From Marinagarivorans algicola (GTDB taxonomy: Bacteria; Pseudomonadota; Gammaproteobacteria; Pseudomonadales; Cellvibrionaceae): DNA of 64,000 bases. This document shows positions 56,678-60,261 of the stretch, piece by piece (positions within the stretch are counted from its first letter, which is position 1; each line of letters opens with the position of its first letter). A program made the translations under genes and the position numbers. The notes under the pieces are model-generated. The model was not told the DNA's origin, did not search any database, and saw only the letters and a list, made by a program, of their open reading frames with translations. The stretch covers positions 1 to 64,000 of the forward strand of contig NZ_LGAK01000009.1 in NCBI RefSeq assembly GCF_001292705.1, written 5' to 3'.

Positions 56678-57094
56678 ATGGGTTTTCAATGGCTTAAAGG
56701 TCAGCAATGGGCGACGATGGTGATATCTTTCGCTATAGGCGGTGTGTTGTTAGGTGCCATGACTGGCTGTGTGACAACCACTAGCGGGTTGTACTATTGG
56801 GGGGAGTACGAAAATGTATTGCATACCCAGTTGACCAAACCGGACAAAATGACTGCGCGTAGACAAGTAGAGATTCTGGAGCGCGATATTACAAAGGCCA
56901 CACAGCTTGGGCAAAAGGTTGCCCCAGGGGTTTATGCACAGCTAGGTTTAGCGCTGGCCGAGCTTGGTCAGCGCGATGGGGCTAAAGCGGCGTTTGATCG
57001 AGAGATAATCCTGTACCCTGAATCGGCTATTTTGCTTAAAGGCATGATGCAGCGCGGTGATGAAGCGATGAAGTTGCAAGGAGTTCGGCAATGA
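56678..57094 (+). CDS. DUF4810 lipoprotein
   Basis: About 138 residues from the ATG preceded by AGGT; a methionine four codons earlier lacks a ribosome site. A lipoprotein signal ends at MTGC (VTTTSGLYYWGEYENVLH follows). The second half has a TPR-like helix pair (YAQLGLALAELGQRDGAKAAFD). Middle gene of the CsgG-DUF4810-DUF799 operon; its stop overlaps the next start (ATGA). Confidence 0.85.
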   Translation: MGFQWLKGQQWATMVISFAIGGVLLGAMTGCVTTTSGLYYWGEYENVLHTQLTKPDKMTARRQVEILERDITKATQLGQKVAPGVYAQLGLALAELGQRDGAKAAFDREIILYPESAILLKGMMQRGDEAMKLQGVRQ

Positions 57095-57720
57095 AGTTTT
57101 TTTTGAGCCTATTTGGGTGCTTGCTATTAGCAGGGTGCGCCAGTGCGCCTCACACGCCAAGAGCTGATATCGTGATGCCGCGTTCTATTTTGGTGTTGCC
57201 GCCAGTGAATGATTCGGTTGAAGTCGATGCCCCATCGATTTTTTTATCGACGGTATCAAAGCCTTTAGCTGAACGTGGTTACTATGTGTTTCCTGTTGAT
57301 GTGGTGGCCCGCTTGATGCGTGATAACGGGATGCATACGGCTGTCCAAATGCATCAAGTACCGCTCGATTTATTAAAGCAGCATACAGGCGCAGAGGCTG
57401 TGTTGTACGTTAATATTCGGCAATGGGGGCAAAAGTATCAGGTTGTGAGCTCTCAAGCAGTAGTTAAAGCTGACATGAAATTAGTACTCAGTAGTACAGG
57501 CGCTACTATTTGGCGTGGTACGGCCAGAGCTAGTCATGACTCGGCAAGCAATCACAATAATCTTGCCGAGGCGCTTATTGGAGCAGTGGTGACGCAAATT
57601 AGCGGTACTTTATACGATCAAACCTATGAGTTATCGCGTGAAGCTATAGAGCGCTCGCTAGGCACATTACAAGAAGGCCCTTTGTTGCAAGAAGCGCAAT
57701 ACCTGAAAGGAAACCGATAG
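57091..57720 (+). CDS. DUF799 (GNA1162-like) lipoprotein
   Basis: 209 residues, lipobox LLLAGC (Cys16). SILVLPPVNDSVEVDAPSIF, LAERGYYVFPVDVVARLMRDNG and GAEAVLYVNIRQWGQKYQVV are family features; the Neisseria member GNA1162 is a surface-associated TolB-like lipoprotein. Translationally coupled to DUF4810. The trio probably forms an outer-membrane complex. Confidence 0.87.
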   Translation: MKFFLSLFGCLLLAGCASAPHTPRADIVMPRSILVLPPVNDSVEVDAPSIFLSTVSKPLAERGYYVFPVDVVARLMRDNGMHTAVQMHQVPLDLLKQHTGAEAVLYVNIRQWGQKYQVVSSQAVVKADMKLVLSSTGATIWRGTARASHDSASNHNNLAEALIGAVVTQISGTLYDQTYELSREAIERSLGTLQEGPLLQEAQYLKGNR

Positions 57721-58847: not shown

Positions 58848-59060
58848 ATGGAAAGTCTCTATTTACTCATTCCTATTGCGATTATTATCGTGGCGATAGC
58901 GGTGGCGGTGTTTTTTTGGGCTGTAAAATCTGGCCAATACGACGACCTTGATACTGAGGCAAGCCGTATTTTGTTTGACGAGCCCGATCAACCGCTACCT
59001 GACACGGCTTCATTAAACGATGCGCAAGCGTCGAAATCTTCGAGCCATCAGCATGATTGA
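58848..59060 (+). CDS. ccoS: cbb3-type cytochrome oxidase maturation protein CcoS
   Basis: Small inner-membrane protein of 70 residues: one membrane span (LLIPIAIIIVAIAVAVFFWAV) followed by KSGQYDDLDTEASRILFD, the CcoS signature. It is needed for loading cofactors into the cbb3 oxidase, together with the copper ATPase CcoI. Its stop overlaps the next gene by 8 bases. The ccoNOP and ccoI genes are not in the window. Confidence 0.95.
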   Translation: MESLYLLIPIAIIIVAIAVAVFFWAVKSGQYDDLDTEASRILFDEPDQPLPDTASLNDAQASKSSSHQHD

Positions 59061-59865
59061 GCTGGCCATTACTGCTGTATTATTGGGTTTGATGGGGGCT
59101 GGCCATTGCTTAGGTATGTGTGGTGGTTTTGCGGCTGCCTTGGCCTACGCAATTCCCTCAGAGCAAAAAATAAGCCGTTTAACGTTATTGCTCAGCTATA
59201 ACCTTGGGCGCATGAGTAGCTATGCGGTACTCGGCGCCATTGTCGCGGCTGGGCAAAATGCAGGTTTTGACTCGGGTTATCCTTTAGCGCGTACATTGGC
59301 TGGGCTTTTACTGGTGGCAACGGGCCTTTATTTGGCCAATATCTGGCGCGGTATTACTTGGCTTGAGCGTGGTGGTCAAAAAGTTTGGCGCTTTATTCAG
59401 CCTATGAGTCAGCGCTTGTTACCCGTTTATACAGTACCTAAGGCTTTATTATTGGGTATGCTGTGGGGGTGGCTGCCTTGTGGCTTGGTATATTCGATGT
59501 TAGTGCTAGCGGCTACTCAGTCAAGCGCTGCCATGGGTGCATTGACAATGGCCGCTTTTGGTCTTGGCACTTTACCGGCAGTGTTAGCCGGTGGTTTAGC
59601 TGCACACTGGGTGCGCCAGTGGCTAGTTAAGCATTGGTTTCAACGTAGCCTGGCATTTGCCTTTATAGCTTTTGGTTTCTGGACTTTTGGTGTTGCTTGG
59701 TACCATCATTTTCACCATGCAAACCATGCAAACCATGCAAACCATGCAAACCATGCAAACCATGCAAACCATGCAAACCATGCAAACCATGCAAACTCTT
59801 CTTTACATCCTACTGCAACTGATCATTCAAATACGTCGTCTTTATCGACTCATGAGCATCATTAA
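59053..59865 (+). CDS. Sulfite exporter TauE/SafE-type (CcoH-associated) membrane protein with His-rich tail
   Basis: About 270 residues. ATG at 59053 gives MIELAITAVLLGLMGAGHCLGMCGGF, the DsbD_2/SafE start; the longer frame is not family-like. MCGG and a later PCGLVYSML are conserved Cys-containing segments of this branch, next to ccoS in many proteobacteria and probably in copper handling for cbb3 oxidase. About six spans. The C-terminal tail is unusual: HHFHH, nine His-Ala-Asn repeats, and a final HEHH, likely metal-binding. Confidence 0.85.
   Translation: MIELAITAVLLGLMGAGHCLGMCGGFAAALAYAIPSEQKISRLTLLLSYNLGRMSSYAVLGAIVAAGQNAGFDSGYPLARTLAGLLLVATGLYLANIWRGITWLERGGQKVWRFIQPMSQRLLPVYTVPKALLLGMLWGWLPCGLVYSMLVLAATQSSAAMGALTMAAFGLGTLPAVLAGGLAAHWVRQWLVKHWFQRSLAFAFIAFGFWTFGVAWYHHFHHANHANHANHANHANHANHANHANHANSSLHPTATDHSNTSSLSTHEHH
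59716..59796 (+). repeat. Nine-copy 9-bp tandem repeat encoding His-Ala-Asn
   Basis: CATGCAAAC occurs nine times without a mismatch. The unit is three codons, so copy-number changes by slippage keep the reading frame. It lies in the C-terminal tail of the SafE-like protein. Confidence 0.97.
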
Positions 59866-59874
59866 GGAATCAAT

Positions 59875-60261
59875 ATGCGATTTTTACATACCATGTTACG
59901 TGTGGGCGATTTAGCCGCATCACTCAATTTTTATGTTGATATCTTGGGTATGCGCTTGTTGCGCCAACAAGACTTCCCTGATGGTCGTTTTACATTGGTC
60001 TTTTTAGGTTATACCGATGAGGCCAGTGGAACGGTATTGGAGTTGACCCACAACTGGGACACACAAGACTACGATCTTGGCAACGGCTATGGCCATATTG
60101 CCATTGGTGTTGAAGATGTTTATGCCGCCGCAAATAAAATTAAAGCGGCTGGTGGCAAAATTGTGCGAGAAGCGGGGCCCATGCTGCATGGTCAAACAGT
60201 ACTGGCTTTTGTCGAAGACCCCGATGGCTATAAGATTGAATTATTAAGTATCGATGCTTAG
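59875..60261 (+). CDS. gloA: Lactoylglutathione lyase (glyoxalase I)
   Basis: Converts the methylglyoxal-glutathione hemithioacetal to S-lactoylglutathione. 128 residues: MRFLHTMLRVGDLAASLNFY, GMRLLRQQDFPDGRFTLVFLGY, LELTHNWDTQ, GYGHIAIGVEDV and FVEDPDGYKIELL carry the four metal ligands (His5, Glu, His, Glu). Normal length and a good ribosome site (AAGGA). Confidence 0.96.
   Translation: MRFLHTMLRVGDLAASLNFYVDILGMRLLRQQDFPDGRFTLVFLGYTDEASGTVLELTHNWDTQDYDLGNGYGHIAIGVEDVYAAANKIKAAGGKIVREAGPMLHGQTVLAFVEDPDGYKIELLSIDA

Follow-up and report, generated by a model that had tools for sequence, protein, structure and literature searches.

The closest described counterparts of the protein studied here are VC1435 of Vibrio cholerae and SO2357 of Shewanella oneidensis, which like it belong to PF13386 and are placed after ccoS (PMC3899249; plasmid locus of Shewanella baltica). 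In PMC3899249, VC1435 is stated to be required for cbb3 oxidase assembly, with Braun and Thony-Meyer 2005 as the cited source. For Campylobacter jejuni, PMC8267372 reports that deletion of ccoS nearly abolished cbb3 activity, which was partly restored by added copper. Searches of an open-access library otherwise turned up few studies dealing directly with the CcoS-linked DsbD_2 protein and no description of the tail that is the subject of this study.

We analyzed a 64-kb stretch of the genome of Marinagarivorans algicola, hereafter the window, in which the gene following ccoS encodes such a protein with a repeat-built C-terminal tail. This genome is denoted G000, and G001 and G002 are sister species of the same genus. 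The features concerned are the following.

58848..59060, plus strand: ccoS, cbb3 oxidase assembly protein (PF03597, E 4.9e-23; TIGR00847, 61.8 bits, cut-off 28.35)
59053..59865, plus strand: DsbD_2-type membrane protein, 270 residues and stop codon (PF13386; AlphaFold2 model)
59104..59121, plus strand: HCLGMC motif in helix 1, comprising H18, C19, M22 and C23 (50-protein alignment)
59470..59484, plus strand: WLPCG motif at the break of helix 4 (alignment; helix break in the model)
59701..59862, plus strand: His-rich C-terminal tail of 54 residues including 17 His, predicted to be disordered at its end and to be periplasmic
59716..59796, plus strand: nine copies of CATGCAAAC encoding (His-Ala-Asn)9 (sequence; TRF)

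The nine copies of CATGCAAAC matched each other at 100%, and inspection of the sequence and TRF agreed on what the initial annotation had described, namely nine perfect 9-bp copies in frame within a C-terminal tail. With a TRF score of 166 the array ranked first among the eight rows of the window, the next scoring 70, and a search of the 4.06-Mb genome for the two-copy CATGCAAAC pattern with at most two mismatches returned, apart from the array, a single degenerate site located on a different contig. A chance origin of the array is excluded by inspection. In frame, YHHFH precedes the array and SSLHPTATDHSNTSSLSTHEHH with a stop codon follows it; the flanking HHFHH previously pointed out is thus present, but its last His is already the first His of the array. 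An open reading frame of MQT repeats in another frame (59672-59914), which overlaps the array, was dismissed as a by-product of the repeat. The Ala codon was GCA in all nine copies of G000 as against GCC in both of the full HAN copies of G001, which points to expansion or homogenization since the two split and fits the recent expansion that had been proposed.

The protein matched PF13386 over profile positions 1-199 of 199 (E 1.5e-51; 175.6 bits against a gathering score of 24.9), and the gene, with its ATG at 59053, shares 8 bases with the 3' end of ccoS. Plasmid-borne relatives carry the annotation TauE/SafE, and the one NCBIfam model listed, ArsG permease (NF040495), reached 22 bits against a cut-off of 200, so far below that the ArsG name does not apply. 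Comparisons below use a set of 50 proteins and their loci, being the 51 matches of a search among relatives minus that of G047, where the gene is in fragments. Nine bases after the gene lies one for lactoylglutathione lyase (glyoxalase I; 59875-60261; TIGR00068, 159.5 bits, cut-off 120); such a gene followed at no more than 100 bp in 9 of the 50 loci, and in four others it was about 2 kb distant. Upstream of ccoS is a gene for a GNA1162-like lipoprotein (57091-57720; PF05643, E 6.4e-54), the position of which is only loosely conserved in the host genus (G000 and G001 among the 50 loci). Of the relatives located on plasmids, that of S. baltica pSbal01 had a cco operon as its neighbor and that of Halomonas a thiol and metal cluster, with nothing telling nearby in Magnetococcus.

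In the alignment of the 50 proteins, M22, C23, P142 and C143 were found in every sequence and H18, C19 and M166 in 49. The AlphaFold2 model, based on 80 aligned sequences, had a mean pLDDT of 83.7 and a pTM of 0.73, with ten helical segments, a break at WLPCG and a low-confidence C-terminal end; the ten segments may be read as six membrane helices. In all 50 proteins K+R exceeded D+E in the loops between helices 3 and 4 and between helices 5 and 6. The charge count of the tails showed that K and R are scarce there, with D+E in excess in 37 proteins and K+R in excess in two, and by the positive-inside rule both ends of the protein are predicted to be periplasmic. Comparison with the PDB gave no Foldseek match at E ≤ 0.001 and no phmmer match to PDB sequences up to E 1. 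Using VIA-align, the highest rows for the predicted core in the model of 59056-59862 were those of NqrE/RnfE (Z 8.9, 137 residues, 5.0 Å), although at 10% identity, and a Z score of this kind between helical bundles may reflect common arrangement alone. A weak fold likeness was also seen to the CcdA/DsbD core in the form of the CcdA NMR structure 5vkv (Z 4.2, 166 residues, 16% identity), from which the host protein is set apart by its conserved HCxGMCGG motif and long tail. Both structural matches can serve as leads only.

The genetic link to cbb3 oxidase assembly runs through ccoS. Among 58 related genomes the DsbD_2 gene and FixS (ccoS) occurred in the same 51 and were both absent from the same seven (G003, G008, G038, G044, G048, G049 and G056). 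FixO departed from this pattern in four genomes, as G008 and G049 have it but lack the pair, and G019 and G055 have the pair with no FixO match; absences count for little in G003, G019 and G038 because these genomes are 68-75% complete. Directly upstream of the DsbD_2 gene, ccoS was found in 49 of the 50 loci (tblastn located 48 of these and the FixS model the one in G057), the exception being G023, with the two genes on separate contigs. In both adjacency and co-occurrence the gene accordingly behaves as a counterpart of VC1435. The oxidase genes of G000 are on contig C20, which carries ccoN (736 bits), ccoO (287 bits), ccoP (294 bits) and ccoG (521 bits), all above cut-off, together with a copper-type P-ATPase (TIGR01511, 461 against a cut-off of 397), and the ccoS/DsbD_2 pair is on C103, so the physical link is to ccoS and not to the oxidase genes. 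Pair and ccoO were likewise apart in G001 (C18 versus C34) and G002 (4.67 versus 2.93 Mb), the pair thus staying together away from the oxidase genes, and they were on different contigs in a few other relatives, such as G036 and G040. The cbb3 link given in the initial annotation is hence upheld by the pairing with ccoS and by the statement on VC1435 in PMC3899249, with the qualification that the oxidase genes themselves lie elsewhere in the genome.

To the 50 proteins we added 105 from a search of the host's taxonomic family, giving 155 in total: 140 of them belong to that family, and the other 15 to different families within the same order. The gene was present in 140 of the 144 genomes of the family. 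At least four His were found in the tails of 134 of these 140 proteins, and His was the last residue in 104; a few tails were short or poor in His, six of them having fewer than four. Within the set of 50, His made up 27% of tail residues in the host's family (n = 35) and 21% in other families (n = 15), as compared with 1.2% in the cores. When the tail DNA of all 155 was translated in each frame, His amounted to 24.1% in the coding frame versus 1.8% and 2.6% in the other two. Unlike the host protein, all 8 homologues from Shewanella and all 12 from Photobacterium sampled among the best 80 named loci are without the His tail, which indicates that it is not needed for the basic role but is a lineage trait on a core able to do without it.

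Tandem arrays, defined by a TRF score of at least 50 with lower-scoring rows dropped, were present in 32 of the 155 tails. All 49 tail rows had periods divisible by 3, ranging from 9 to 60, and the units were diverse, including HAN, HAE, SSH, HST, DHQ, DHS, DHDM, NHEGM and MDHSx. The best array held His in 31 of the 32 tails; the tail of G144 (locus L186) had the sole array without His, of AEGSSS/ADGSLS-like units with a period of 18 bp. The cores, at 100.8 kb against 20.9 kb of tail, gave eight TRF rows; the rows in G122 and G146 lay where core and tail meet. On the tree of 50 cores, where the short CAC-rich array of G028 (TRF score 46) was left out of the array label, the arrays of nine proteins required eight changes, six of them forced by starred branches. 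On a rough FastTree of the 155, array presence required at least 22 changes, 16 of them forced; shuffled labels required 29.4, with none of 500 shuffles as low as 22, so some arrays are common to relatives. As read from these trees and units, the tails are rebuilt many times, by species, through short DNA repeats, and the (HAN)9 array fits as one recent expansion within this wider pattern. The emphasis of the initial annotation on the HAN unit should therefore be widened: the array is real, but it is the entire His-rich tail, present in most of the family and with a variety of repeat units, that forms the meaningful unit. Far from the gene, a perfect hexamer array of 14.7 copies of AACCAG was also noted in G002 (L125, 10859-10946; reverse complement 56-143).

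Several closely related species, with one genome compared for each, differed by whole repeats in frame. SSH was present in nine copies in G119 and two in G122, which have cores of equal length and 97.7% identity, and HST in one copy in G095 and four in G096 (cores 97.7% identical). The TRF copy numbers of G012, G148 and G150 (cores 96.3-97.7% identical) were 8.2, 11.2 and 6.7, and HAN numbered nine in G000 and two in G001 (cores 90.7% identical). Where core identity reached 80% or more (365 pairs), tail length was equal in 22 and core length in 236, figures that are descriptive because the pairs overlap. The in-frame length change by whole repeats that had been anticipated was thereby observed between species, and instead of the constant copy number named at the outset as evidence to the contrary, copy numbers differed. 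We infer replication slippage to be the mutational process behind the tail arrays. An on/off phase-variable locus was considered and rejected, as the 9-bp unit keeps the frame and every tail row in the 32 proteins has a period divisible by 3; judged by these periods, the tail is not an on/off phase-variable switch.

Tails of G004, G011, G042, G077 and G081 contained runs of MDHSxM, which presumably resemble the Met/His repeats of the periplasmic copper-resistance proteins CopA/CopB. Here, unlike in CopA/CopB, the repeats are on a membrane protein, and the HAN unit of G000 has no Met. The MDHSxM motif was not found in the literature searched for this likeness, and tblastn of a DHSxM-rich peptide against plasmids, with low-complexity filtering on, gave no match.

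Taken with the pairing with ccoS, the tails of the family make it reasonably probable, in our judgement, that a periplasmic His/Met tail binds metal, likely copper, on a cbb3 assembly factor, with its ligands kept as its sequence turns over. The DsbD_2-type membrane protein would be a partner of CcoS in oxidase assembly, with a core of six membrane helices, the first and fourth of which have conserved Cys, Met and His. From this core a flexible C-terminal tail, His-rich or in some species His/Met-rich, would extend into the periplasm, where it most likely binds copper and would pass it either to the His-Cys-Met-Cys site of the core or to the assembling oxidase. Short frame-keeping repeats would expand and contract by replication slippage, thereby allowing tail length to shift quickly with ligand content kept. 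His, often together with Met and Asp/Glu, would suit copper, and the firm genetic partner is ccoS; the copper handling suggested in the initial annotation is thus plausible. A repeat-built ligand tail is, as far as sequence comparison goes, real and recurrent, and it is probably functional.

It would alternatively be conceivable that the tail, as a disordered end, evolves almost neutrally, with slippage tolerated and His frequent merely from early seeds. The fast change of length and sequence in the 365 pairs, the His-free array of G144 and the Shewanella and Photobacterium species that manage without a tail would all agree with such a view. We nonetheless find it unlikely, as His is high across the 140 family members in spite of unrelated units and ends 104 of their tails, neither of the other frames is rich in His, K and R are few, and tail His showed no dependence on base composition (Spearman -0.18, p 0.20, 50 loci).

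His-rich stretches are in general good binders of nickel and zinc, and lactoylglutathione lyase is a kind of enzyme often dependent on one of these metals. With the lyase gene close downstream in 9 of 50 loci, the tail might thus instead be a periplasmic store or buffer for nickel or zinc having no direct part in cbb3 assembly. The strict partner is however ccoS, the lyase gene is non-adjacent in most loci and the Met-rich MDHSx tails of several relatives would suit copper better, leaving this a quite improbable reading. We consider it highly improbable that, as the initial annotation had it, the array forms a within-population contingency locus, with copy number varying among the cells of a clone and thereby tuning the protein; a perfect array of 81 bp and the different copy numbers of close species would be in line with that, but a 9-bp unit cannot toggle the gene on and off, and nine copies of it may mutate slowly.

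Returning to the proposed copper-binding tail, the host genus shows an additional peculiarity, since cbb3 genes are present in G000, G001 and G002 without matches to Sco (PF02630), PCuAC (PF04314), Cox11 (PF04442) or CoxB (TIGR02866). None of these four was found in G032 either, which clusters with the three on a branch of the tree that is not starred (support 85/87), nor in G003 (72% complete) or G051, the latter with all four absent and yet only 2 His in its tail. The aa3-type oxidase module and both periplasmic copper chaperones have thus apparently been lost in the host genus, where cbb3 oxidase appears to be assembled without Sco and PCuAC, both known as chaperones for copper in the periplasm. 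Median tail His was 13 in species without PCuAC (n = 10) versus 7 in those with it (n = 40), at a one-sided p of 0.015 that ignores kinship. The same comparison was not significant within the host's family (n = 7 versus 28, p 0.10). For absence of Sco, CoxB and Cox11 the p values were 0.09, 0.08 and 0.44, again not significant, and the three independent pairs were too few to decide. From the absence of all four in the genus one may speculate that the tail helps to make up for copper chaperones that were lost. A further step, which we regard as doubtful, would be to see in the tail an evolvable copper antenna that, once enlarged, replaced Sco and PCuAC in feeding copper to cbb3 oxidase in this genus.

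If true, this last reading would mean that slippage sets the count of periplasmic copper ligands on a cbb3 assembly factor. A genus having cbb3 oxidase and no detected Sco, PCuAC, Cox11 or CoxB would also offer a simple background for testing such tails, and the way in which copper is delivered to the active site of cbb3 oxidase is incompletely understood. The tails of the family constitute a natural series of lengths and unit chemistries, as well as an example of slippage giving in-frame quantitative change instead of on/off switching. Their repeated rebuilding from different units, with the ligands kept, is a strong hint that metal binding matters at this DsbD_2 protein.
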